Assembly: GCA_011170325.1 (NCBI GenBank)
Contig: DUEX01000016.1
Coordinates: 1 to 49,699, forward strand
Length of the DNA: 49,699 nucleotides
DNA from: Dehalococcoidia bacterium
Lineage (GTDB): Bacteria; Chloroflexota; Dehalococcoidia; GIF9; UBA5629
Direction of reading: 5' to 3'
Shown: in pieces, positions 780 through 38,808 of the stretch
Numbering within the stretch: the first letter of the stretch is position 1
Layout of the letters: each line of letters opens with the position of its first letter
Position numbers and translations under genes: made by a program
Notes under the pieces: model-generated
Seen by the model: only the letters and a program-made list of their open reading frames with translations
The model's database searches: none
Told to the model about the DNA's origin: nothing

Positions 780-935
780 ATGAGTGTCTATTGGCGAGAT
801 GTATTCATTGTTTTATTTGTGTTAATAGTCATAATCCTGGTGAACATTAATTTTGATTTGAATCTATGGTTGCGTATTCTCTCGGCAGTCGTATTTTTAG
901 TGGTAGCTTATTCACTTTGTAGCAGGAAAAAGTAG
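780..935 (+). CDS. small membrane protein, hypothetical (51 aa)
   Basis: ATG at 780, TAG at 933..935; MSVYWRDVFIVLFVLIVIILVNINFDLNLWLRILSAVVFLVVAYSLCSRKK; below the ORF-track size cutoff. Preceded by gaggaagaggtt. Confidence 0.4.
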   Translation: MSVYWRDVFIVLFVLIVIILVNINFDLNLWLRILSAVVFLVVAYSLCSRKK

Positions 936-1138
936 AGAGGCAAACCATGGAAAGCTTGCCTCCTGCTGAGGTAGGGGAGGATTGCTTGGCTTCGGCTCGC
1001 AATGACAATTAATAAGGTGTTGGCTTGAAGTGCCAGATGGAGTTCTTTGCAAAGTGCCCAGTTTTTCAGGTATCATTTTACTTGGGTAGAACGTTTCTGT
1101 TTTGCGACATGGTGTAACAGAACCAGTAGGGAGGTGAC

Positions 1139-1921
1139 TTGAAAGTGGAACTGCAAAGAATTAACGAAGCTTTGGATTCCTATATTCGGCCTCAGACGTT
1201 TCCTGTAGCCGTTAAGATGGTCGGTTCAGCGAACGAGATTCCGGAGAAAGCCAGGGTGCCGAAGCGAGATTTGGGAGTGACCATGCCGGTATGCCAGGGC
1301 ATAGCTCTGGCCCGGCGTTACGGCTGGCTGATGGCGATGGGCGAGGAGGATATGCTTTGTCCGCTCGGTGCGCTTACATTGGGTTTCGTTCCAGCTAAAG
1401 CTAAATTTCTTGATGGCAGTTTTAATGTCCCTTTCTGGGTAAAGAATCAAGAGGTAAGAGCTAAAATCAACCGAAATCTGCCGCGGCTTGAGCAAGGAAA
1501 GTATAGTCATCTTATAGCAGCGCATCTCCATCGGGCCGATTTTGAACCTCAGGTTATTGTAGTCTATGGTAATCCAGCCCAGATATCGAGATTGATACAG
1601 AGTGCTGTTTACGGAACCGGCGAGCCCGTCGCTTCCATGAGCGCAGGCGGCTTTGCCTGCGGTGGAGAGGTCACTCAAACAATCCTGACTGACCAGTGCC
1701 AGTTAATCGTAGCTGGTGGCGGTGACCGGGCCCTTGCTTTAACCCAAGACCACGAAATGAGTTTTGCTATGCCTATGAGCAAAGCGGAGGCGCTGATCGA
1801 GGGACTTGAAGGAACCCATAAGGCTGGCTTGAGGTATCCGACGCTTTCTTTCCTCACGTATCAGGCACAGTTTCCTCAAGGATTTGGCGAGCTTATGGAC
1901 TATCTGAGGCAGGGTGACTAG
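1139..1921 (+). CDS. DUF169 (COG2043-like) family protein
   Basis: 260-aa ORF with PVAVKMV...CQGIALARRYGW and a SMSAGGFACGGE region typical of DUF169 proteins; TTG start after ggaggtgact. Confidence 0.75.
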   Translation: MKVELQRINEALDSYIRPQTFPVAVKMVGSANEIPEKARVPKRDLGVTMPVCQGIALARRYGWLMAMGEEDMLCPLGALTLGFVPAKAKFLDGSFNVPFWVKNQEVRAKINRNLPRLEQGKYSHLIAAHLHRADFEPQVIVVYGNPAQISRLIQSAVYGTGEPVASMSAGGFACGGEVTQTILTDQCQLIVAGGGDRALALTQDHEMSFAMPMSKAEALIEGLEGTHKAGLRYPTLSFLTYQAQFPQGFGELMDYLRQGD

Positions 1922-23029: not shown

Positions 23030-23914
23030 ATGGAGCAGTTCTTAACTTTTCTCATACCTGGCATATTTGTTGGAATGGTATATGCCCTCATAGCAATGGG
23101 CTTCGTCACTATCTACAGAACTACTGGTGTTTTGAATCTGGCTCAAGGTGAGATCTTCTTGATTGCAGGCTATTTTATGCTCTTTCTGGTTGGTGGCATA
23201 GGCCTCTCCTTCTGGCTGGCAATTCCGGTGATGCTTGGTATGCTGGCGCTTGTGGGGGTGATAACGGAACGGATAGCTTTGCGTCCCTTGGTAGGTCAAC
23301 CTATCATGGGGATAATCCTGATGACGCTGGGGATTGGCGCTTTTCTCAGAGGGGTGATGACACTGTTTTGGACTGACCTGGTAAGGCCGGTGCCGTCAGT
23401 TTTTCCACTTGAAGGGGTGCCTGTATTGGGAGTCATGATATCTCAGGCCTATTTGTGGTTTGGTGTAATAGCGCTGGTCGTGTTTATAGGCTTGTGGCTG
23501 TTCTTTAATCGGACTAGGATGGGCCTTCTGATGAAGGCGGCAGCCGATGCTACTCTGTTAGCTCAGAGTTGTGGAGTCAGTGTAAACACTGTCACCCGGA
23601 TGTCTTGGATTATATCTTGCATAACGGTTGGTCTTGGTGGCTACATGCTTACTACTATTACTGGGGCCCAGCCGTTGATGGGTGCCTTGGGGCTGAGGTC
23701 TCTGGCCGTGGTATTGGCTGGAGGCATGGAATCCATTGGTGGAGTCATGCTGATGGGGCCTGTGGTAGGTGCCGCAGAATTTATATTCGCTGGTTACTTT
23801 GACCCATTTGTTGGTGGTGCGCTGAAGGAAGTAATAGCATTCGTACTCTTGATCTTCTTTCTTTTGATTCGTCCCCAGGGTCTCTTTGGCTGGAGAATAA
23901 TAGAGAGGTTGTAG
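23030..23914 (+). CDS. livH: branched-chain amino acid-type ABC transporter permease (LivH-like)
   Basis: GLVYALIAMGFVTIYRTTGVLNLAQGEIFLIAGYF-type N-terminus and LAGGMESIGGVMLMGPVVGAAE. Confidence 0.93.
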   Translation: MEQFLTFLIPGIFVGMVYALIAMGFVTIYRTTGVLNLAQGEIFLIAGYFMLFLVGGIGLSFWLAIPVMLGMLALVGVITERIALRPLVGQPIMGIILMTLGIGAFLRGVMTLFWTDLVRPVPSVFPLEGVPVLGVMISQAYLWFGVIALVVFIGLWLFFNRTRMGLLMKAAADATLLAQSCGVSVNTVTRMSWIISCITVGLGGYMLTTITGAQPLMGALGLRSLAVVLAGGMESIGGVMLMGPVVGAAEFIFAGYFDPFVGGALKEVIAFVLLIFFLLIRPQGLFGWRIIERL

Positions 23915-23918
23915 AAAA

Positions 23919-24971
23919 ATGCGTTGGCCAAGTGGAACATACAGTTACAAATATGATGAAGATATGGCTATCTTTCGAACTAAAACCCAGTGGGGTTTGT
24001 TGATAGCTTTCTTGATTTTGATGGCCTTAGTCCCGTATCTTGTTGCTCCTGATTTAGTTACAATAGTTCTTATCATGCTTATCTGGATTGTTGCAACTCA
24101 GGGCTTGCAGCTTCTCTTAGGGTATACTGGTCAAATCTCGGTCTGTCAATCGGCTATTATGGGTGTTGGGGCCTTTACCACAGGTATTTTGTGTTCCAAG
24201 TTTGCGATTATGTCGTATTGGGCAGCTCTCCCCTTTGCCGGAATTATGGCTGGTTTAGTCGGCATGCTTTTCGGTTGGCCTTCCTTTAAAGTTAAGGGTC
24301 TCTATCTGGCATTGGTCACAATAGGAGCGCAGTTAATCATTATATACGCTATCGTCCATATGCCCGACCTAACCGGTGGAGTAGTGGGTATTGTCATCCC
24401 CGCACCTAGAATCGGCCCCATCGATTTCGGAACGACAGAGTGGTATTACCTTGGCTTGGTGATGGCAGTGTTGGCGACCTTTATTGTCAAGAATATTGCC
24501 AGGACCAGAGCCGGCAGGGCATTTGTTGCTGTAAGGGACAATGACATAGCTGCCGAGGTCATGGGTATTAACATTTTCGCTTACAAAATGCTGTCCTTTT
24601 TCATCGGCTGTTTTCTTGGTGGCGTTGCTGGTTGGCTTTTTGTGGGGTACATAGGTTTTGCGCAGGTTGACCATTATACTCTGGACGAGTCGGTATGGAT
24701 TTTAGGTATGGTGGTTGTTGGGGGAGCGGGTAGTTCTCTGGGGACGATTTTCGGCGTTGTCTTTATTCAAGCCATTCGCGAACTAGCCACCTGGGGAGGA
24801 CCTATCATAGCTGATGCGATTCCATCTCTCGGCATTGGTTTCAGCATGGCCCTGCCACTGCTATCGCTAGGGTTTGCCTATGCTGTCTTTCTGATTTTCG
24901 AGCCCAGGGGGCTGGCGCATAGGTGGGAGATTATTAAGAGGTCGTATCGGCTTTGGCCTTATTCCCGATAA
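23919..24971 (+). CDS. livM: branched-chain amino acid-type ABC transporter permease (LivM-like)
   Basis: LLGYTGQISVCQSAIMGVGAF, VAVRDNDIAAEVMGINIFAYKMLSF, VVVGGAGSSLGTIFG motifs. Confidence 0.93.
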   Translation: MRWPSGTYSYKYDEDMAIFRTKTQWGLLIAFLILMALVPYLVAPDLVTIVLIMLIWIVATQGLQLLLGYTGQISVCQSAIMGVGAFTTGILCSKFAIMSYWAALPFAGIMAGLVGMLFGWPSFKVKGLYLALVTIGAQLIIIYAIVHMPDLTGGVVGIVIPAPRIGPIDFGTTEWYYLGLVMAVLATFIVKNIARTRAGRAFVAVRDNDIAAEVMGINIFAYKMLSFFIGCFLGGVAGWLFVGYIGFAQVDHYTLDESVWILGMVVVGGAGSSLGTIFGVVFIQAIRELATWGGPIIADAIPSLGIGFSMALPLLSLGFAYAVFLIFEPRGLAHRWEIIKRSYRLWPYSR

Positions 24972-25204: not shown

Positions 25205-25834
25205 ATGAAGACAAAAGTTTTAGTTGCCGTGATTATGGTGGTGATGGTGATCAGTGGTGGAGCATTGGCTGGTTGTGCTGCGGCACCAGCACCAGGAGCG
25301 GCGGCGGAGGCGGCAATCCAGCCCCTGGAAGTTAGCATAGCGGCTGTGGATGTTTTTTTCAGCGGGACGGAAAGCATTAGCTTGTTCCCGGTGTTCAGCG
25401 TGTACAATCCCAACGACTACCCTGTCACCGTCAAGAAGATGACATCTGAGGTATTGGTTGATGGTTGGTGGGCTGGCAGTCGGGACCTTGATTTGAACGC
25501 GGCTGTTCCGGCTAAGGGCGAGTCAATGGTTGTAGTGGGTGCTGATGTGATGGTTCCAGGTTGGCTAGCAGGATGGGGGCTTACCGCGGACAAGGGGTTA
25601 GGCTTGGCTGAATGTCAGGCAGCGCTAGTGCCGACGTGGAAGAGCTTAAACGGTGGGCTATTCAGTGCTGGGCTGAAGGAGACTTGGGATGCAGCAGCCT
25701 ACAAGGCGCCTATGTTTGTTGTAAAAGGAAAGGTAGACCTGAGGAGCCCAGGAGGTCAGGACCTACCTCAGGACTATACGGCTACTTGGGAGTTACCACC
25801 TGAGTTTTCGCCGGGACAAAGAACAGCACAATAG
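25205..25834 (+). CDS. LEA14/WHy-like lipoprotein of unknown function
   Basis: Signal peptide with lipobox LAGC; FSVYNPNDYPVTVKKMTSEVLVDG resembles LEA-2/WHy domains; RBS aaggaggtgag. Confidence 0.6.
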   Translation: MKTKVLVAVIMVVMVISGGALAGCAAAPAPGAAAEAAIQPLEVSIAAVDVFFSGTESISLFPVFSVYNPNDYPVTVKKMTSEVLVDGWWAGSRDLDLNAAVPAKGESMVVVGADVMVPGWLAGWGLTADKGLGLAECQAALVPTWKSLNGGLFSAGLKETWDAAAYKAPMFVVKGKVDLRSPGGQDLPQDYTATWELPPEFSPGQRTAQ

Positions 25835-25868: not shown

Positions 25869-26018
25869 GAGATTTAATAGAGACTTTGTCTGCGATGATT
25901 GGCAATCCCGAAATCTAGAGAGATAAGAGTGAAGCAGCAGAGAGGGGGTGGGATATGAGATAAAGAGTTCGATTTTGGGGATGGAAAGTTAAGTAATCTT
26001 TAAGTAAGGAGGTGACTA

Positions 26019-27323
26019 ATGAGAGGTCGGTACAAGTTTGGTGTAGTCGGTTTGGCGGTAGCGGCTGTGCTTGCGTTGGTGGTAGCTTGTGCCCCGGCAG
26101 CTGCGCCTCCACCGGGAGCGGCAGTACCAGAAGAAGTAGAGATGATTCCCATCGGGCTGAATATGGGATTAACCGGGGCAGTAGCGTCGTGTACTTATCC
26201 CCAGAGTCTGGCAGGGCTGGACTATTTTCAAGCTATCAACGATGCCGGTGGATTTGAATACACGGGTCCTGATGGTAAGGTCCACAAAGCCAAGTGGGAT
26301 ATAATGTGGGCAGATAACGCCTTCTCAGTGGCTAAGTCGATAAGCATCGTTAACCGATTCTACGAGAAAGGCGCTCGCGTCTTCATCGTTGCCTGAGGGT
26401 GTCAGGTTGAACCCCTCGCGGGAACGGGGGTAAGACTGGATATCGCAACGATTAGTCATACTACAACTCCGGCGTACTATGATTATTCGCCTTTGCTTAA
26501 TTTCTTGGCACCACAGGCTGACGTTGATGTTGCAGCGGCGCTGTGTGACTGGATTATGAAGGATGATTGGAAAGAGAGTCGGGCACCTAGGGCCGCCTTC
26601 GTAGCATATGAAGCAGCCACGTCAAGGCATTCAGACCACCCTTTGCTTTTCCAGGCGGCCAAAGAGAAAGGGGTGGAGTGGACACCTCACGTCTTTTATC
26701 CATTCACAGCCACGGATTATTCCATGGAGGTCAGGAAACTGATTGACGACCAGAAGTGCGACTACGTTTATATGCGCGGTCCGCCGGCTAACAATGGGAT
26801 GCTTCTGAAGGATGCTGCCAGGCTTGGGCTTAAGGATAAAGCCAAGTGGGTTCTCTGTAATTTTAGTTTAGAGCCATGCGTGGGGGAGATAGCTGGTCTT
26901 GATGTTATACCTGGTACCCTGGGGTCATGCGCCCATGGCACCGTGGAGACCAATGACGCTGCTCCCGCGGTAGCAGAGATCAAGGCGCTTCATGACAAGT
27001 ACCATCCCGACATCCCGTTTGCTAACATGTATCTGTGGGGAAATCGAATGGCGGTGACAGCCGATGCGGTGATAATGACAACTCTGGAGAGGGTTGGCCT
27101 GGAGGGTCTTACCGGTACTGAATTCGCCGAGTCGATGTGGGATGTAAAGGACCTGGATTTCAACGGGAATGGTATGCCGTTAACGATGGAGCAAGGGAAT
27201 ATTGCCGTAGACCACTATATTCAGGTAGTGGAGTGGGGTACGGATGGCCTACCACATATCATCAGTGATTATACTAGGTGTCCTTGGTTGATCGGCAATC
27301 CCGAGGTTAATTGGCGGAAGTAG
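26019..27323 (+). CDS. livK: Liv-type ABC transporter substrate-binding lipoprotein with in-frame TGA; candidate selenoprotein (Sec at residue 126)
   Basis: Lipobox VVAC; 26019..26396 and the ORF at 26493..27323 are in the same frame, and the only stop between them is TGA at 26394..26396: ...NRFYEKGARVFIVA[TGA]GCQVEPLAGTGVRLDIATISHTTTPAYYDYSPLLNFLAPQ... Full-length product 434 aa. Confidence 0.75.
26402..26439 (+). promoter_or_regulatory. candidate bacterial SECIS (bSECIS) hairpin
   Basis: Upper stem ACCCCU/GGGGGU (26411..26416 with 26426..26431), extra G418-C425 pair with bulged C417, apical loop CGGGAA (26419..26424), lower stem UCAG/CUGG (26402..26405 with 26436..26439); 22 nt between the UGA and the loop. 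Confidence 0.55.
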
Positions 27324-27446
27324 TCCAAAAGGTATAGACAGGAGAGTTGAGGAAGTTAGCTGTAGAGAGGTAGCTTAACCGGCTGCTTCTCTATGGCTAC
27401 GGAAGTGGCGGGGTGTTATCAACAATGGGAGGAGCGTGGTTTAGAT

Positions 27447-29456
27447 ATGGGTAAAATAGAAATAGACTTAAAACATGTGGATACAAGTCTAGACCTTAAC
27501 GAATTTAAAGAGGATATTTGTCCTGATTTAGACCTGAACGAGAACAACACATTGCCCAAAGTTATGCGGGCTCGGGTTCGGCAATGGGGCGGTGAGAAAA
27601 TATGGATGACTCACAAGGATTTCGGTATTTGGCAACCTTATACCTGGAAAGATTGTTATGAGCGTATAGAGTTGGTTCACCTTGGCTTGGTGAGCTTGGG
27701 GCTTGAACCCGGGGATGTGGTTGGTATTATTGGAGATAATGACCCGCGTTGGTTCTGGGCAGAGTTTGCTGTTCAGGTGGGGCGGGGTATAGTCGCAGGC
27801 ATGTATACCGACTACCATTATGCCGAGGTGAAGTATGTCTTGGGCTTTAGCAAAGCCACGTTCGCTTTCGCCAAAGACCAGGAAATGGTAGATAAGATAG
27901 TACATGAAAAGGACAACTTGCCTAACTTGAAGAAGTGCATTTATTGGGAATCCAAGGGATTGTGGTTCTATGAACAGCCGTGGCTGATGAGCTATGATGA
28001 GCTGGAAGACCTGGGCAGGGAATATAAGAAGAGCCACCCCACCCTTTTCGACGAGAATATTGATAAGGGGCAGCCTGATGAACCGGCGGTGATAATGCTG
28101 AGTTCGGGCACTACCCGGATGACCGAGGACGGAGTTCCCAGGTCGCAGATGGGGCAGATGACGCACCGTGCTGTGATGGCAAATTTGATAGGAATTTTTA
28201 AGTTAGACGCTTGGTATCCGACCGATAGATGGCTTTCCTACCTGTCACCTGCCTGGGGCGAACAGTATTTCGGTCTCACCGGTGGTCTTCTATCAGGTTT
28301 GGAGGTAGATTTCCCCGAGGAGCCGGAAACAATTAATAATGATATCAGGGAGATAGGCCCTCAAGCCTTGTTATTCCCAGCTAGGCTCTGGGAGGCTAGA
28401 ATCGCGGAGGTGTTCAGTCGTTTAAAGGATTCCAGTCGATTTAAGAGATTTTTCTATAACCGTTTTCTGCCACTAGGCTATAAGATGGCAGATTACGTAA
28501 TGACGGGAAAGAAAGCGCCGCTGTGGCTATCGATATTAAACAAGATCGGATATTGGCTAGTGTTTAGACCGTTAAGAGACCAAATGGGGTTACTACATCT
28601 TAGGCATGGATACAATGCGGGTGCTACTTTGGGTCCGGAGTCACTTCGTTGGCTCCACGCCCTTGGCATACCCGTGAAGCAGCTTTACGGCACCACTGAG
28701 GCTGGGATTCATTGTATTCACCCGGATGGTGACATAGATTATGAAACCGTGGGGAAGGTTCTCAAGCCCGAATGGATAACGGTCAGTAAAGAAGGGGAGA
28801 TTTTGATGCGTGGCCCTATCCTAGGCTGTGGTTATCTTAATGACCTTGGAGCCTGGGAGAAGGTGTTTGATGAGGAAGGCTGGTATCATACAGGAGATGC
28901 CGGTCACATAAACGAAAACGGGCATCTTATATTTTACGACCGGATGAAGGACATGGTGACGATGCCTACGGGGAGAAAATTTTCTCCTCAGTACGTTGAG
29001 TCTCGGCTTAAGTTTAGTGAGTTCATAACGGATTGTATTGTATTGGGGGGGGAAGATAAGGCCTTCGTGTCAGCAATAGTAACTGTGGATTATGCAAATG
29101 CCGGTGACTGGGCAGAAAAGCATCGTGTCCCCTATACAACTTATCCTGACCTGTCTCAGAAGTCTCAAATCTATGACCTTGTCAAAGAAGAGGTGGAGCG
29201 AGTCAATCTATATCTTGCTGACGACATAAAGATAAAGAAATTCGCTAATCTCCATAAGGAATTCGATGCCGATGATGCTGAGCTTACCCGTTCGGGGAAA
29301 ATAAGGCGAAAGTTCTTCGAAGAGCGTTATGCCGAGCTTATTGCCACTATCTACTCCGATGCGGAGAAGTATGAGACGGAGGCACCGGTAAAGTACAGAG
29401 ATGGTAGGACAGGGAAGATAAGAACATCTGTTACCATCAAGACCGTGATAGAATAA
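27447..29456 (+). CDS. long-chain-type AMP-binding acyl-CoA synthetase
   Basis: VIMLSSGTTRMTEDGVPRSQMGQMTHRAVM, YHTGDAGHINENGHLIFYDRMKDMV; start at ATG 27447 preceded by GGGAGGAG (27393 also possible). Confidence 0.9.
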   Translation: MGKIEIDLKHVDTSLDLNEFKEDICPDLDLNENNTLPKVMRARVRQWGGEKIWMTHKDFGIWQPYTWKDCYERIELVHLGLVSLGLEPGDVVGIIGDNDPRWFWAEFAVQVGRGIVAGMYTDYHYAEVKYVLGFSKATFAFAKDQEMVDKIVHEKDNLPNLKKCIYWESKGLWFYEQPWLMSYDELEDLGREYKKSHPTLFDENIDKGQPDEPAVIMLSSGTTRMTEDGVPRSQMGQMTHRAVMANLIGIFKLDAWYPTDRWLSYLSPAWGEQYFGLTGGLLSGLEVDFPEEPETINNDIREIGPQALLFPARLWEARIAEVFSRLKDSSRFKRFFYNRFLPLGYKMADYVMTGKKAPLWLSILNKIGYWLVFRPLRDQMGLLHLRHGYNAGATLGPESLRWLHALGIPVKQLYGTTEAGIHCIHPDGDIDYETVGKVLKPEWITVSKEGEILMRGPILGCGYLNDLGAWEKVFDEEGWYHTGDAGHINENGHLIFYDRMKDMVTMPTGRKFSPQYVESRLKFSEFITDCIVLGGEDKAFVSAIVTVDYANAGDWAEKHRVPYTTYPDLSQKSQIYDLVKEEVERVNLYLADDIKIKKFANLHKEFDADDAELTRSGKIRRKFFEERYAELIATIYSDAEKYETEAPVKYRDGRTGKIRTSVTIKTVIE

Positions 29457-29479: not shown

Positions 29480-30337
29480 ATGCCTATTATCGATTGGACT
29501 AGAATTCCTTTGTTCCAAGGGAGACAGAAAGTCGAAAGCGACAGTGCCATACTGAGGGTCGAAGACCTTTACCTTCGTTTTGGTGCACTTGAAGCTGTGA
29601 AGGATGTTAGCTTTGAAGTCAAGGGGAACGAAATCTTATCCATTATCGGACCCAATGGAGCCGGGAAAACCTGCGTTCTCAATTGCATAAACGGGTTTTA
29701 TCGCCCGCAGCGAGGTAGAATCTATTTCAAAGATAAAGAAATCACAAAGCTTCCTTCTCATCGGATCGCTCCTTTAGGTATCTCTAGAACTTTTCAGAAT
29801 CTTGCCCTTTACACTGGGCTGACGGCTTTAGACAACCTGATGGCAGGAAGACACCCACATCCTGCAATGAGTAAAGAGGGTGTTATCAGTGGGGCGTTTT
29901 ATTTTGGCAGAGCACACAGAATAGAAATTGAGAATCGAGAGGTGATTGAGTACATAATCGACCTGTTAGAAATGGAAGAAATAAGAGGCAAAGTAGTGCA
30001 TTCTCTTTCTTATGGACAACGGAAGAAGGTGGAGCTGGGCAGAGCCTTAGCTTTAGAGCCTGAACTCCTTCTACTCGATGAGGTTATGGCGGGGATGAAT
30101 CTGGACGAAAAGGATGATATGGCTCGTTATGTTATCGATGTTCACGAGCTCTGGGGTATCCCTGTGGTCCTGGTGGAGCATGACATGGGGGTTGTTATGG
30201 ACCTGTCTGATAGGGTGATTGTGATGGATTGGGGAACTAAAATTGCCGAGGACGTTCCAGAAGTGGTCAAGAAGGACCCCAGGGTCATTAGTGCCTACTT
30301 GGGTACCGCCGAGGCTGCAGAGAGGAGGATTACATAG
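29480..30337 (+). CDS. livG: Liv-type ABC transporter ATP-binding protein (LivG-like)
   Basis: GPNGAGKTCVLNCINGFYRPQRG, SYGQRKKVELGRALALEPELLLLDEVMAGMN. Confidence 0.94.
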   Translation: MPIIDWTRIPLFQGRQKVESDSAILRVEDLYLRFGALEAVKDVSFEVKGNEILSIIGPNGAGKTCVLNCINGFYRPQRGRIYFKDKEITKLPSHRIAPLGISRTFQNLALYTGLTALDNLMAGRHPHPAMSKEGVISGAFYFGRAHRIEIENREVIEYIIDLLEMEEIRGKVVHSLSYGQRKKVELGRALALEPELLLLDEVMAGMNLDEKDDMARYVIDVHELWGIPVVLVEHDMGVVMDLSDRVIVMDWGTKIAEDVPEVVKKDPRVISAYLGTAEAAERRIT

Positions 30338-30386: not shown

Positions 30387-31178
30387 ATGCTGAAGGTAGA
30401 TAATATTGAAGTCCTGTATCAGGGTAGTATTTTGGTGCTAAGGGGTGTCTCTTTGGAGGTTCCCGATGGGCAGATTATTACTATACTGGGGGCCAATGGT
30501 GCTGGGAAGACTACCACGCTTAGGGCCATATCTGGGTTACTTAAACCAGAGGAGGGGGAGGTGAGCGATGGTAGCATTGAATTTGATGGGCAGAGAGTAG
30601 AGAATAGCAGCCCCGAGTTTACCGTTAAATTGGGCATTGTTCAGGTGATGGAAGGGCGGAGATCGTTTGAGCACCTTACCGTGGAGGAAAACTTATTGGT
30701 AGGGTCTGCTCTTCGCAAGGACATGAGCGGAATCAAAAGCGATTTAGAGATGGTTTATGGGTATTTTCCCAGACTTAAGGAACTTCGCCGTAACGTTATT
30801 GGCTGGTGCTCGGGAGGGGAGCAACAGATGACAGTGATAGGTCGCGGCATGATGTCGCATCCGAAACTCATGCTGCTCGACGAGCCTTCTCTGGGACTTA
30901 GCCCAACGTTGGTTCTACAGATATTCGATATAGTGAGGAAGATTAATACGGAGATGAAGATAGGTATGTTGCTGGTGGAGCAGAATGCTTTAGCTGCCCT
31001 GAATATGGCTGAGTATGGCTATGTCATGGAAAATGGCAGAGTGGTACTTGATGGACCTTCTCCCAAACTGATAGACAATGAGGATGTAAAGGAATTCTAT
31101 CTGGGGCTAACCGAGATAGGCAAGCGAAGTTATCGAGATGCCAAACATTACAAACGAAGGAAAAGGTGGTTGGCTTAG
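30387..31178 (+). CDS. livF: Liv-type ABC transporter ATP-binding protein (LivF-like)
   Basis: GANGAGKTTTLRAISGLLKPEEG, CSGGEQQMTVIGRGMMSHPKLMLLDEPSLGLSP. Confidence 0.94.
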   Translation: MLKVDNIEVLYQGSILVLRGVSLEVPDGQIITILGANGAGKTTTLRAISGLLKPEEGEVSDGSIEFDGQRVENSSPEFTVKLGIVQVMEGRRSFEHLTVEENLLVGSALRKDMSGIKSDLEMVYGYFPRLKELRRNVIGWCSGGEQQMTVIGRGMMSHPKLMLLDEPSLGLSPTLVLQIFDIVRKINTEMKIGMLLVEQNALAALNMAEYGYVMENGRVVLDGPSPKLIDNEDVKEFYLGLTEIGKRSYRDAKHYKRRKRWLA

Positions 31179-32115: not shown

Positions 32116-32264
32116 CCTTAAGCGAGGTTTGGGGCACATCGTTGGTGGCTTTGGGAGGGGCTTTTCCGTGTCAGCTTCTGAATATACCACCGAGATTCTC
32201 TCACAGGTAAACAACCTCTTGGTGCGTGAGTTAAGTTAGGCTTCGTATGTGTGCCCCATCTTTT

Positions 32265-32356
32265 GGGAGTGGATGAGCTCCGGTGGGCTCCACGGACTTC
32301 AAATCCGCTGGTGGGCATTTTTAATGTCCATAGTGGTTCGACTCCCTCCACTCCCG
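32265..32356 (+). tRNA. selC: tRNA-Sec (anticodon UCA)
   Basis: 8-bp acceptor GGGAGTGG/CCACTCCC, 6-bp D stem GAGCTC/GGGCTC with 4-nt loop, anticodon loop CTTCAAA (TCA at 32299..32301), long variable arm GGGCATT/AATGTCC, TTCGACT T-loop, discriminator G; no encoded CCA. Confidence 0.93.
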
Positions 32357-32487
32357 CTTTCAAGAATCTACTTTAATTCTAAAGGGAGCCGAACACGATT
32401 TAGGTAGCTAGTTGCTATATTGGTATTAGGTCTGTTGATTCAATCAAACTCGCTTTGGTTATGTGTTAGGTGACTTAGTTGGCTACG

Positions 32488-33900
32488 TTAGCTAATGGTG
32501 TCAGCTTCTTTAGTTTGGTCAAGATGAGTGGATGGGAAGAGCAGTCGTAATGCCTGGGTGACACTTTCTTCCTCTTCGGGAAGCACGCATCGTGGATCGA
32601 GAATCAAGGAATTCTTTTCTACGCGCCCTATAATAGGTGGACGATGTTGCCTCAGTTTTCTGGCTAGGTCGTGAACCTTAGCCTCTGCCTTCAGCTTAAT
32701 AACCACGAGCCTAGTGGGCAGGGAGCTTGCGGGTAGGCTGCCTCCGCCAACTACGGATTCACCAGGAATTATAAGAGCCGGGCTCCCAAGTAACTGTAAC
32801 CATCTCTCAGCCCGTCTTTCTATCTCTGTCAATGGCATGGCAATTAGGCGAAGCACGGGAATTTTATCCAGGGCTTCGCCTTTAAGATAGTGGAGCAATG
32901 TAGCAACGAGGCCAGCAAGCCTCACCTTGTCAATGCGAGCTGCCCTTGCCAAAGGATGTCTCTTTAGCTTGTCAATAAGCTCTTGTTTACCCACGATTAT
33001 GCCTGCCTGCGGTCCACCTAGAAGCTTATCGCCGGAGAAAAAGACTAATGCAGCGCCGGCGGAGACGCTATCCTGAACTCGGGGTTCAGGCTCAAGACCA
33101 AATTTGGTGGTATCAATAAAGCATCCGCTTCCTAGGTCATCGAGCACTGGGAGATTATGTCGTTGTCCAAGCTCAACTAGCTCCTCGAGGGTAACACCCT
33201 GGGTAAATCCGATTATTTTGAAATTACTTGAGTGAACCCGAAGTAACGCCTTTGTTCTGGGGGTAATCGCTTGCTCATAGTCAGTGAGGTAGGTGCAATT
33301 AGTTGTTCCGACTTCTACGAGCTTGGCACCGCTTTGGCGCAGCACCTCAGGAATTCGAAAACCTCCGCCGATCTCTATTGCTTGTCCTCGGGAGACTATA
33401 ACCTCTTTCCCTCTGGCTAAAGCACTGAGGGCAAGTAATACTCCGGAGGCATTATTATTAACTACCAGAGCAGCCTTGGCACCGGTTAACTGGCAAAGGA
33501 GGTGTTCGATGTGAACTTGGCGGGAACCCCTCCGGCCTCTATCAAGGTCAAACTCCAGATTGCTGTAGCAATTAGAGACTTGATTCATGGCCTCTATTGT
33601 CTCAAGACTGAGAGGGGCTCTTCCAAGATTAGTATGAAGTATGACGCCAGTGGCATTTACTACTGGTTGCAGAGGCGAGCTTTCCAAAGCACGGGTTTCA
33701 CTCTCAATCGAGTCTACTATTTCCTCAAGGGACGGAGGTGATTCGCCCTGGCTTATAGAGCGACGAATTTCTTCCAGTCGCTGGTGGATCAGGTCCAGAA
33801 CCAACTCACGGGGAAAAACCTGGCAAAGCTTTTTAATGTGCTCTTCAGAGAGCAGCTTATCCACACTGGGAAGTTGACGGAATTTGGTCTCTAGGTTCAT
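32488..33900 (-). CDS. selA: L-seryl-tRNA(Sec) selenium transferase
   Basis: NATGVILHTNLGRAPLS, DDLGSGCFIDT, SGDKLLGGPQAGIIVGK motifs. Confidence 0.96.
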   Translation of the reverse strand: MNLETKFRQLPSVDKLLSEEHIKKLCQVFPRELVLDLIHQRLEEIRRSISQGESPPSLEEIVDSIESETRALESSPLQPVVNATGVILHTNLGRAPLSLETIEAMNQVSNCYSNLEFDLDRGRRGSRQVHIEHLLCQLTGAKAALVVNNNASGVLLALSALARGKEVIVSRGQAIEIGGGFRIPEVLRQSGAKLVEVGTTNCTYLTDYEQAITPRTKALLRVHSSNFKIIGFTQGVTLEELVELGQRHNLPVLDDLGSGCFIDTTKFGLEPEPRVQDSVSAGAALVFFSGDKLLGGPQAGIIVGKQELIDKLKRHPLARAARIDKVRLAGLVATLLHYLKGEALDKIPVLRLIAMPLTEIERRAERWLQLLGSPALIIPGESVVGGGSLPASSLPTRLVVIKLKAEAKVHDLARKLRQHRPPIIGRVEKNSLILDPRCVLPEEEESVTQALRLLFPSTHLDQTKEADTIS

Positions 33901-35759
33901 CGTCTCAATACTCGTTCATTGCCAACTCGGCGGGTTATTTTCTGCTCATCGAGATATTCCATGAGGGCTACGGCGTGTCTGCGACTGGTTTGGAACAGGT
34001 CGCGAGCTTCAGCTACGGTTATCTTCCCCCGCGATTCTATGTGCTTGACAACCTGCTTTAACATTTCCTCATAGGCAGGGGCGCTAAAGATAATCCCATC
34101 GCCTGCCTTAACCATTTTTCGCTCCTCGATAAGCAAGTTGAGGAGATCGGGCTCGAGAGGCAAAGTGGTGGGTGGTGAATATGGATTTTGAGCCAAGGCC
34201 TTGAGGAAAACATCAACCTTGACCTGCTGCTCAGGGGAGAGTCTGATACTATGCGAGGGAAGTCTTACCGCTGTCTTGTCATCAACCAAGACACGTTCGT
34301 CAACGAGTTTTTGCAATATATTATCAAACTGCGAGGGCGGTATTTTGAGTTGACTTTTGAGTTCTTCCTTAGGCATCCCCCGACGCAATGGAAACCGGCG
34401 ATGGTAGTTTTGGGTTAATCTCTCCGCCTCCTTTGTCAGGTGTTCCCAGTGGCTATAGGGAAAGAGGAGCTGGTGTAAGCCCTCATGACCAACCGCAATT
34501 ACTTGGGCCTTGCTAACTAGACTTCTCAGCGCTTGCTTAGCTTCAGCCTCAGAAAGATGAGATTGAAGTATTACCTTCTCAAATTCTGACGGCGGACTAG
34601 CTTCCAATGCGGCAAGGAGGAGATCCTCTGAAGTGCCTTCGGCTCTGGACTTCAAACTCTGTATGATGGTGCGTTGAAAACGACGATGTCGCTTGGGGCA
34701 AGTGTCAACGATTTCACCACCACCTAGAGTTCCCTTTTGGGAAGAGCGAATAACAAAGAGGTCACCCTTGGCTACAGCTACTGGACGGACTAGATTCACT
34801 TGAGCCCAGCCGGTTTCACCGGGGTCAAGCCTCTCTCTGTCTAAGAGACGAATCCTGCCTGCTACTTCATGAGAGCCGGTGTGGAAGGTAACAGACATGT
34901 TATGCTTGATGGAGCAGGGAAGAGTGGAGATTGCTCGGAGTTTAGCGTCAAGAAGGTAGGTTGGTTTAAGCCATCCTGGGGTAGTTATTACCATTCCTCG
35001 TTCAATCTCCTCAAGAGTGACCTTGGTCAGATTGGCAGCCACACGACTACCCGGCAGCGCAGTATCAATCTTCTGCTTGTGCATCTCCAAACCACGGATA
35101 GAAGTCCTCAGCCCAGGTGGCAAGATCTCCACATTCTGCCCTATGTTAAGTTTACCGTCAATTAAGGTACCGGTCACCACGGTGCCGAAACCCTTTGTGG
35201 TGAAGACGCGGTCAATATGTAGTCTCGCCTTGCCGATGTCTTCCCTCGGCGTGGTAGAGTCCAAGAGATGGTCGATGGTGGAGATTAAGCTAGGCAGCCC
35301 CTCACCAGTTATCGCTGAAACAGCGACAATCGGAGCATCATTTAGGGTAGTCCCTTTCACCAACTCCTTAGCTTCCGAGATTACTAGCTCCAGCCACTCC
35401 TTATCAACAAGGTCTTTCTTGGCAATGACCATAATGCCCGTTTTGATATTAAGAAGGTCAAGGATAGCTAAATGTTCTCTGCTTTGTGGCATTACCCCCT
35501 CGTTAGCGGCGATGACGAATAGAACTAGGTCAATGCCTCCAGCTCCAGCTAGCATGTTTTTAACAAACCTCTCATGACCAGGCACATCAATGATGCTAAC
35601 CTGCCGTCCGCTGGGAAGTTTGAGCCAAGCAAATCCCAGGTCAACGGTCATCTCACGTCTTTTCTCCTCTGGCAGCCGATCAGGATCAATGCCGGTGAGA
35701 GCGTAAACTAAAGCTGACTTGCCATGATCTACGTGGCCTGCGGTACCTAGAATATACAT
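33897..35759 (-). CDS. selB: selenocysteine-specific translation elongation factor SelB
   Basis: GTAGHVDHGKSALVYALTGIDPDRLPEEKRREMTVDLGFAW, DVPGHERFVKNMLAGAGGIDLVLFVIAANEGVMPQSREHLAIL, plus C-terminal winged-helix repeats; ATGA overlap with selA. Confidence 0.96.
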   Translation of the reverse strand: MYILGTAGHVDHGKSALVYALTGIDPDRLPEEKRREMTVDLGFAWLKLPSGRQVSIIDVPGHERFVKNMLAGAGGIDLVLFVIAANEGVMPQSREHLAILDLLNIKTGIMVIAKKDLVDKEWLELVISEAKELVKGTTLNDAPIVAVSAITGEGLPSLISTIDHLLDSTTPREDIGKARLHIDRVFTTKGFGTVVTGTLIDGKLNIGQNVEILPPGLRTSIRGLEMHKQKIDTALPGSRVAANLTKVTLEEIERGMVITTPGWLKPTYLLDAKLRAISTLPCSIKHNMSVTFHTGSHEVAGRIRLLDRERLDPGETGWAQVNLVRPVAVAKGDLFVIRSSQKGTLGGGEIVDTCPKRHRRFQRTIIQSLKSRAEGTSEDLLLAALEASPPSEFEKVILQSHLSEAEAKQALRSLVSKAQVIAVGHEGLHQLLFPYSHWEHLTKEAERLTQNYHRRFPLRRGMPKEELKSQLKIPPSQFDNILQKLVDERVLVDDKTAVRLPSHSIRLSPEQQVKVDVFLKALAQNPYSPPTTLPLEPDLLNLLIEERKMVKAGDGIIFSAPAYEEMLKQVVKHIESRGKITVAEARDLFQTSRRHAVALMEYLDEQKITRRVGNERVLRR

Positions 35760-36325
35760 CTTAATATCTGCCTATATTACCCTGATTTTCTCCTTAGGGG
35801 CTACCATTGCCTCCCCGATAATCGCGCGTCTATGTCTGCTTCAACCAGCCTCTCGAGCAGGAGTCTTGGCTTTCCCTTGGGCAAAGAGAAGGGCAGCCCA
35901 CGCGGATGCAACCTCATTTTGGACAAATCCCCTGCTCGATTTTGCCCTCGCATTTCTATTTGGCAAATTAAATTCTGCTTGCGCGTATTATACTGTAGCA
36001 CGGGGTTTTAGTCTACTAAAGTGGCCTGAGGGCATGGAGACAGCTTACTCTATGTGCTCAGATGATAAAGCCGATTAGGGCTATGATAAAGGAGAGGCTT
36101 ACCGGGCCTCAGCTTGTCTATATCTAGTAATGAGGCCAATTATGCTGTTAGATAAATCAAATGACCGATTTTCAAGCAACCTCGTTCTATTCCGTCTTCT
36201 AGTCTAAATACAAAGAGGCAGCTTTCCATAGCTGTGGGGATTTTAGTCGCTGATTTCGGGCGACTCTTATCTTCTTGCTTATATTTTAGGTGGGGGGTTA
36301 TAATATAAGCCACGAGGTGAAGGGG

Positions 36326-36753
36326 TGAGGATCGTTCTTTACACGGGCAAGAGAGGAGTTGGTAAGACCAGCGTAGCTGCAGCTACAGCGCTGAACGAAA
36401 TATTATCCTGCCTTATAGTTTGAGGGAGCTGCCAGTTGCAGAGGTAAGATTTGATAAAACCAAGCTGACAATCAAATTTAAGCAGGATCGGGAACAGCAA
36501 ACGAATAGTCCTAGGAGGTGAACAGACGGGTGAAAGAATTTTGGAAGTAGAGCATCAACCTGGGGAGGAGCTTGCAGTTCGGTTTAGGTTGCCAAGATTT
36601 GGAGCTACGTCTAAGCCAGCTCGGGAACACCTATTGGCGGCCTGTAAGGAGATGTTGTTAAGCTTGCGCAGTCTAGTCGATGCGGCTATCGAGCAGGTTG
36701 ATGAAGACGGAAAGAAAAAGGAAAAAACTAGAACTAGAATTGAGGTTGAATAA
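36326..36753 (+). pseudogene. decayed ArsA-like anion-transporting ATPase locus (Walker A start, C-terminal piece) plus small downstream ORF
   Basis: RIVLYTGKRGVGKTSVAAATALNEILSCLIV* then, in another frame, YSLRELPVAEVRFDKTKLTIKFKQDREQQTNSPRR*; downstream 71-codon ORF 36541..36753 (EVEHQPGEELAVRFRLPRFGATSKP...). Confidence 0.45.
36541..36753 (+). CDS. small hypothetical protein (70 aa), abuts the downstream EF-G-like gene
   Basis: ORF ending TAA at 36751..36753 immediately followed by GTG of the next gene. Confidence 0.45.
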   Translation: MEVEHQPGEELAVRFRLPRFGATSKPAREHLLAACKEMLLSLRSLVDAAIEQVDEDGKKKEKTRTRIEVE

Positions 36754-38808
36754 GTGCACCATTATGGATCAGAGAAAATTCGTAACGTTGTTTTGACGTC
36801 TCATTCAGGCGCTGGTAAGACCTCACTAGCTGAGGCGATACTTCTTGATTCAAGAGCAATTAGCCGCTTAGGCAGTGTTGATGACGGCACAACCACTTCA
36901 GATTACGACCCTGATGAGATTAAACGTAAGATCAGTATTAATTTATCTTTGCTCCCGTGCCAATGGAGAGAATCTAAGCTGAACTTCATTGATACTCCAG
37001 GTTATCCTGACTTCGTAGCTGAGGTTAAATCAGGGTTGCGTGTTAGCGAAGGTGCCATTATTGTGGTTTGTGCTGCTTCTGGGGTGGAAGTGGGTACTGA
37101 GCAAGTGTGGGAATATGCTACTGAGTCAAAACTCCCTTGCCTTATTTTTGTCAATAAAATGGACCGCGAGAATGCCAACTTCTTCGATACGTTGGAAGAC
37201 ATTCGAAATAAACTAGGGGCAAAATGCTTACCCATTCAATTACCCATAGGCTCCCAGAAAGATTTCCAAGGACTAGTAGATTTGGTAACGAGGAAAGGTT
37301 ATGTCGGCGCATCATTGCAGGAAGTCGAAATTCCCTCGTCCCTTTTGAGTAAGGTTGATTCTTACCGAGATAAGCTTATTGAGGCAGTAGTAGAAATCGA
37401 TGACCAACTTATTGCTAAGTATCTAGATGGGGAGGAGATAAGCGAAGAGGAAATTCACCGAGGTATAAAACAAGCAACGATGCTTGGTAAAGTCGTGCCG
37501 ATTTTACTTGGTTCTGCTTTAAGCAATACTGGCATTACTCTTCTTCTGGATGCTATTCATGATTATCTACCCTCACCTAGGGAGAAAGGTGGGTTGACAG
37601 CTATCAATACTTCGACTGGAGCTGAAGAGGCAGTGGAACCAGTTTCTGAATCATCTTTGTCTGCTTTGGTCTTTAAGACTAATATCGATCCTTACGTGGG
37701 CAAGCTTAGTTATTTTCGAGTCTATTCAGGGACTATTTCTGGCAATTCACAAGTATGGAATGTTAACAAGGGCGCGATTGAGCGAATAGGTCAGCTTTTT
37801 ATCTTGTGTGGCAAAACACAGGATCCGGTTCCGCAACTCAGTGCTGGGGATATCGGCGCTGTAGCCAAACTAGCCTCGACCGCTACAGGGGATGCTCTTA
37901 GTTCGCGTGACCATCCGTTGAAGCTCATCCCTGTCGAATTCCCCCAGCCAGTGTTAAATATGGCAGTCCATCCTAGATCAAAAGCCGATCTGGACAAAAT
38001 GAGCACGGCATTACCAAAAATCTGCGAAGAGGACTTAACCCTAAAAGTGCAACGAGAGCCGGATATTGGTGAAATGCTACTTTGCGGAATGGGGGGGACG
38101 CATCTTGAGGTTGCATCCGAGAGATTGTCACGCAAGTTTGGTGTGGAGGTGAATCTGGAGCTGCCTAAAGTTCCCTATAAGGAGACCATTACCATGCCAG
38201 TCAAGGCAGAGTATAAGCATAAGAAGCAAACGGGTGGTCATGGTCAGTTCGGTCACGTCTTCTTGGAGTTGGAGCCTTTACCAAGAGGGAGTGGTTTTGA
38301 ATTTACTGAGAAAGTAGTTGGTGGAGCAATACCCAAGAATTATATTCCAGCTGTGGAAAAGGGGGTTAATGAAGCTAGGCTTGAGGGAGTTTTAGCTGGA
38401 TATCCTGCAGTTGACATGAGGGTAAAGCTTTATGATGGAAGCTATCACTCTGTGGATTCATCAGATATATCTTTTAAGATTGCTGGGGCACAGGCTTTGA
38501 AGAAAGGGCTATCACAAGGGCAACCTGTTTTGCTTGAGCCGGTTGTGAACTTGACAATTACTGTGCCTGAAGTTTTTACTGGTGACATAATCGGCGATCT
38601 TAATGCCAAACGGGCGCATGTATTGGGGATGACACCAGGAAATGGGACTAATGTCATTCAAACGCAAGCACCATTGGCAGAGGTACTGCGTTATGCTATT
38701 GACTTAAGGTCAATGACCCAGGGGCGTGGTACTTTTACTACCGAATTCAGCCATTATGAAGAGGTGCCAGCACCTATTGCTCAGAAAATTATAACCCAGC
38801 GGGGTTAG
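36754..38808 (+). CDS. elongation factor G paralogue (EF-G2/FusA2-like)
   Basis: SHSGAGKTSLAEAILLD Walker A variant, FIDTPGYPDFVAEV, FVNKMDRENANFFDTL, KQTGGHGQFGHVFLELEPLP. Confidence 0.9.
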   Translation: MHHYGSEKIRNVVLTSHSGAGKTSLAEAILLDSRAISRLGSVDDGTTTSDYDPDEIKRKISINLSLLPCQWRESKLNFIDTPGYPDFVAEVKSGLRVSEGAIIVVCAASGVEVGTEQVWEYATESKLPCLIFVNKMDRENANFFDTLEDIRNKLGAKCLPIQLPIGSQKDFQGLVDLVTRKGYVGASLQEVEIPSSLLSKVDSYRDKLIEAVVEIDDQLIAKYLDGEEISEEEIHRGIKQATMLGKVVPILLGSALSNTGITLLLDAIHDYLPSPREKGGLTAINTSTGAEEAVEPVSESSLSALVFKTNIDPYVGKLSYFRVYSGTISGNSQVWNVNKGAIERIGQLFILCGKTQDPVPQLSAGDIGAVAKLASTATGDALSSRDHPLKLIPVEFPQPVLNMAVHPRSKADLDKMSTALPKICEEDLTLKVQREPDIGEMLLCGMGGTHLEVASERLSRKFGVEVNLELPKVPYKETITMPVKAEYKHKKQTGGHGQFGHVFLELEPLPRGSGFEFTEKVVGGAIPKNYIPAVEKGVNEARLEGVLAGYPAVDMRVKLYDGSYHSVDSSDISFKIAGAQALKKGLSQGQPVLLEPVVNLTITVPEVFTGDIIGDLNAKRAHVLGMTPGNGTNVIQTQAPLAEVLRYAIDLRSMTQGRGTFTTEFSHYEEVPAPIAQKIITQRG

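Follow-up and report, generated by a model that had tools for sequence, protein, structure and literature searches.

A candidate selenocysteine codon in the gene of a Liv-type substrate-binding lipoprotein from a Dehalococcoidia bacterium

An in-frame TGA codon (26394-26396, plus strand) lies within the gene of a Liv/HAAT-type substrate-binding lipoprotein (PF13458; 26019-27323, plus strand) in the window analyzed here, a 49,699-nucleotide stretch of DNA from an uncultured, anaerobic Dehalococcoidia bacterium, and this codon is probably decoded as selenocysteine (Sec), which would make the gene a selenoprotein gene. The proposed mechanism is that SelB loaded with Sec-tRNA-Sec would bind the stem-loop situated directly 3' of the UGA at 26394, that the codon would then be read as residue 126, and that the outcome would be a full-length lipid-anchored binding protein serving the adjacent LivHMGF ABC importer. 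The frame is open on both sides of the TGA, the genome encodes a complete Sec machinery, and the hairpin that follows the codon agrees with the bacterial SECIS model more closely than what follows almost all of the window's other TGAs; from these features we infer the insertion of Sec at residue 126. The evidence for UGA recoding in this binding protein comes from one genome, where probable Sec decoding is the best single explanation of the codon, ahead of an assembly error, a recent nonsense mutation and a read-through that involves no Sec.

Anatomy of the gene and its operon

The reading frame starts at ATG 26019, is preceded by a Shine-Dalgarno-like sequence (AAGGAGGTG, 26006-26014, plus strand), passes through the TGA and continues for 308 open codons 3' of it up to TAG 27321-27323, with no other stop codon in between. 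The joined product has 434 residues and begins with a signal peptide followed by a lipobox cysteine (Cys24, codon 26088-26090), the latter being a cysteine in 35 of the 48 aligned rows. Residue 126 is embedded in the segment FIVA-U-GCQVEPLAGTGVR, where the proposed Sec and Cys128 (codon 26400-26402) form a U-G-C motif. A first-pass annotation, made from the sequence alone, had described a single in-frame TGA with same-frame continuation to 27323 and a lipobox-bearing product of 434 residues reading FIVA-U-GCQVEPLAGTG, and each of these points is borne out on translation. It also raised the possibility that the U and the C of this motif might pair as a selenylsulfide. The PF13458 match extends over residues 43-409 of the joined protein and spans the TGA (65.6 bits against a gathering cut-off of 31.7 bits, E 8.5e-18), so that sequence homologous to the relatives in this family is found on both sides of the codon. 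A division into two separate genes was discarded: the second half has neither a ribosome-binding site nor a signal peptide, and its earliest start, TTG 26493, lacks a Shine-Dalgarno-like sequence. Standard annotation nevertheless cuts 26019-27323 into two pieces, with the consequence that the gene is lost. Among the TGA-joined frames of the window this is the only real gene; the others are shadow frames or apparently non-coding, and those at 36339-36761 and 908-1225, minus strand, fall mostly outside known genes and look non-coding.

The gene belongs to an operon-like series on the plus strand that comprises a LivH-like permease (23030-23914, PF02653), a LivM-like permease (23919-24971, PF02653), a small LEA_2-like lipoprotein (25205-25834; PF03168, 23.3 bits, below the 25.4-bit cut-off), the binding protein, an acyl-CoA-synthetase-like AMP-binding enzyme (27393-29456, PF00501), a LivG-like ATPase (29480-30337) and a LivF-like ATPase (30387-31178, ABC_tran, named by its position and family). 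The TGA-bearing gene encodes the sole binding protein of this importer operon, whose remaining genes are intact.

Selenocysteine machinery and the hairpin after the TGA

Three of the genes for Sec synthesis and insertion are located 5-9 kb downstream of the binding-protein gene, as had been claimed from the window: those for tRNA-Sec (anticodon UCA; 32264-32357, plus strand; RF01852, 65.6 bits), SelA (32488-33900, minus strand; PF03841, 470 bits) and SelB, which carries SelB winged-helix domains (33897-35759, minus strand; PF09106, PF09107). The fourth, selD, which the first-pass annotation had proposed to look for elsewhere in the genome, is present on a different contig and is itself a Sec-UGA gene, whose active-site sequence (...VSGAG-U-ACKIG...) includes an in-frame TGA; the same holds for nearly all selD genes of the positive genomes in the class sample. 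With tRNA-Sec, SelA, SelB and SelD all encoded, the Sec set is complete and the decoding of UGA as Sec is possible in this cell. At the same time, TGA is the ordinary stop codon of 8 of the 30 listed genes in the window (28 distinct, two being entered twice); with UGA in regular use as a stop in this genome, its recoding, if it occurs, has to be confined to particular sites.

Several other features of the genome were recorded. No internal stop is found in formate dehydrogenase-like genes among the listed matches of this genome, nor in its FlpD/MvhD; the full Sec machinery is kept, yet the listed formate dehydrogenase-like matches contain no internal stop, and selD is the known Sec client. Upstream of selD there is a second short TusA-like start (L040:1389-1490, MATEVDAQGL...), which appears truncated and is preceded by an intact TusA/YedF-like gene. 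Beside selB and upstream of an EF-G-like gene lies the relic of an ArsA-like anion-transporting ATPase (36325-36753, plus strand), which consists of an intact-looking N-terminus (PF02374, 25.9 bits, 24 residues), stops and a possible C-terminal remnant.

A SECIS element directly after the TGA had been suggested as a check of the Sec interpretation, and a strong hairpin does occupy the right place (26398-26444, plus strand; -22.0 kcal/mol on folding). Its upper part can be written as ACCCC-(U)-CG-[CGGGAA]-CG-GGGGU, that is, an upper stem of 7 bp with a bulged U (26416) two pairs below a 6-nt apical loop (26419-26424) that contains GGG and starts at a distance of 22 nt from the TGA. According to the published model, a bacterial SECIS has a loop of 3-9 nt with a G in its first two bases, a spacing of 16-37 nt, a stem of 4-16 bp and an MFE of -7.5 or lower (PMC13188914), all of which apply to this hairpin. 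The bare model is permissive, as 288 of the 1865 TGAs (15%) present in the window, both strands counted, satisfy it, and the weight therefore rests on the strength of the hairpin and on its z-score. By MFE it ranks fourth among the 1865 TGAs and by energy first among the 418 codon positions of its own gene; its shuffle z is about -2.9, and only nine of the 1865 TGAs combine agreement with the model and an equal or lower z. A bulged U together with a G-containing loop likewise follows nine of the 1865 TGAs, the one at 26394 being the most stable. Moreover, the CGGGAA loop resembles the CGGGA or CGGGT present in the equivalent loop of selD from this genome (CGGGA) and several related ones. Codon choice contributes less: a synonymous-codon test at the hairpin gives p of about 0.015, yet control blocks elsewhere in the gene go down to z -3.1, and since they score as low as the site, the test was set aside as evidence. 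No other six-codon run in the genes of the window is as rare as codons 132-137, an observation that counts weakly for the same reason. Given the weakness of the codon-choice test, the chance agreement of a TGA with such a hairpin is put at roughly 0.2-0.5%, and not lower.

Homologues at the site and competing explanations

The search for closer homologues took in 100 relatives, 393 genomes from the class and 400 from the phylum, the order around the best hit, genome contigs (scanned twice), viral contigs and plasmids, and none of these sources yielded a homologue of the binding protein closer than about 30% identity. The closest ones (G170 and G156), at about that level, have Ala at the site of residue 126. 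Across the 47 genomic relatives this site is occupied by Ser (15), Ala (11), Thr (5), Gly (5), Met (4), Leu (3) and others, while Cys, a stop or TGA is found there in none of the 47; the sole aligned Cys is Cys78 of a distant relative, E. coli LivJ. The first-pass annotation had looked to Cys or TGA at this position for support and regarded other residues as contrary evidence, so the Ser, Ala, Thr, Gly and Met encountered instead tell in part against it. For almost every selenoprotein, homologues with Cys are known (PMC13188914). The missing Cys or Sec homologues constitute the main weakness of the Sec interpretation; they are compatible with it, but they make an erroneous base in the assembly and a recent nonsense mutation live alternatives. 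The PF13458 matches listed for 40 relatives are all free of internal stops, which indicates that a stray stop is an uncommon event in this family. A parallel search with the neighboring synthetase reached identities of at most 47% and did not point to any closer orthologue of the binding protein. Of the 84 synthetase homologues listed, three are interrupted by a stop, a TGA in one case and a TAG in two; these single-stop genes (G116:C5:35836-37740, G397:C24:8466-10355 and G186:C7:2962-4860) come from related MAGs and are probably errors or pseudogenes.

An error deserves consideration, either as a wrong base in the assembly or as a strain polymorphism collapsed into a MAG, in which case the true codon would be a sense codon, Ser- or Ala-like, in an ordinary binding protein. 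The assembly is fragmented (135 contigs, 92% complete) and probably a MAG, the synthetase homologues attest that MAGs of this kind contain occasional stray stops, and the relatives mostly carry Ser or Ala at the site. Against this, a stray TGA would have to be followed by chance by a hairpin of a strength and form that only about 0.2-0.5% of TGAs possess, and would in addition have to lie both in the ligand loop and two residues from a Cys, all within a Sec-decoding genome; an error is accordingly regarded as unlikely, even if it is the most plausible of the alternatives. Slightly less plausible still is a recent true nonsense mutation that has left a young pseudogene, or a gene for nothing but a 125-residue truncated lipoprotein. 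The role of UGA as an ordinary stop in this genome agrees with such a lesion, and the ArsA-like relic 9 kb away bears witness to gene decay nearby, but the 1305 bases of the gene contain no second lesion, the importer operon is otherwise intact and has no other binding protein, and the hairpin would be left unexplained.

The residue inserted at a UGA cannot be told from the anatomy of the gene alone, and a selenium-free route, in which leaky or near-cognate decoding inserts Trp or some other amino acid and the hairpin promotes the read-through, would lead to the same joined product. This reading is judged very improbable in view of the dedicated Sec machinery encoded 5-9 kb downstream, of the SECIS-like spacing and loop of the hairpin and of the fact that Trp occupies the site in no aligned homologue. 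The selenoprotein interpretation of the first-pass annotation gains from selD, from the SECIS-like hairpin and from the predicted fold, and loses from the constant absence of Cys or TGA at the site in genomic homologues.

Residue 126 and comparison with known systems

The structure of the joined protein was modeled with AlphaFold from a 48-sequence alignment (the protein itself and its 47 relatives), Sec being represented as Cys, and reached a pLDDT of 89.9 and a pTM of 0.85, against a pLDDT of only 56 with a 3-sequence alignment. According to this model, the read-through product is one intact two-lobed periplasmic binding fold, and the nearest solved folds retrieved by Foldseek are Liv-type binding proteins and their relatives (best E 4.6e-21, to 3eaf). 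Residue 126 is placed between a strand (121-124) and a helix (127-140), in accordance with the earlier assignment of the UGA to the ligand loop after a beta strand; the corresponding strand-helix loop of LivJ bears ligand-contacting serines. A profile alignment pairs residue 126 with Cys78 of E. coli LivJ, in a register made uncertain by an adjacent insertion; it also pairs Cys58 with LivJ Tyr18 and places Cys280 beside LivJ Glu226. In LivJ, Cys78 is linked by a disulfide to Cys53; since the joined protein has Phe102 at the position aligned with Cys53, it does not retain this bridge. Taken with the secondary structure, the alignment suggests that several cysteines may face the cleft. Past residue 40 the joined protein contains nine Cys/Sec residues; the median of the aligned rows is four, and two other rows also have nine.

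Two further proposals build on this arrangement. Tentatively, the protein may found a new selenoprotein family as the first Sec-containing Liv/HAAT receptor, in which a Ser/Ala loop position would have become Sec without a Cys intermediate and a selenol/thiol-lined cleft (Sec126 and Cys128, with Cys58 and Cys280 aligned to positions in the pocket) would receive a soft or redox-sensitive ligand. A little more doubtful is the idea that Sec126 and Cys128 at the edge of the cleft would act as a redox switch or as a soft-ligand contact, the substrate, probably a carboxylate, being subsequently activated by the acyl-CoA synthetase of the operon; such a redox or soft-ligand function is the likeliest one for the Sec, although confidence in it is low.

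Selenocysteine has been encountered chiefly in redox enzymes, and the first-pass annotation had considered a Sec residue in a solute receptor unusual and was aware of no well-characterized example. Precedents do exist in SaoB, SaoX and BtuF, all of which were listed as Sec-containing binding proteins in a 2026 review, but these are predicted cases and belong to other families (PMC13188914). SaoB (NF040727) and SaoX (NF040735) are likewise ABC substrate-binding proteins with a predicted Sec (PMC13188914); their Sec motifs are CUxxT and UxP, as opposed to UGC in the joined protein, which matches no NCBIfam model, these two included, even at E <= 10. The selenoprotein form of the cobalamin-binding BtuF is another substrate-binding protein for which Sec is predicted (PMC13188914), but its domain model (cd01144, not PF13458) and its motif (CxxU) are different. 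The UGC motif itself is common to the Prx-like and TlpA-like selenoproteins (PMC2398784, PMC13188914), which are thioredoxin-fold enzymes unrelated to the joined protein in fold and sequence. Neither PF13458 nor the term 'branched-chain' is mentioned in the 2026 review (PMC13188914). Sec in a solute receptor is hence not new as an idea, whereas for the Liv/HAAT family no earlier case was found and the present one, if real, would be the first found. It would extend the use of selenium to receptors for nutrients that form a very common class, with Sec at the ligand loop, and it would mean that Sec arose at a non-Cys position of the family, a situation that selenoprotein searches based on Cys pairs miss by design. 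With the Liv/HAAT-type proteins (PF13458; E. coli LivJ, PDB 1z15; T. thermophilus 3lkb) the joined protein has in common the fold, the family, the lipoprotein or periplasmic character and the LivHMGF operon, and it differs from them in the in-frame UGA at the ligand loop.
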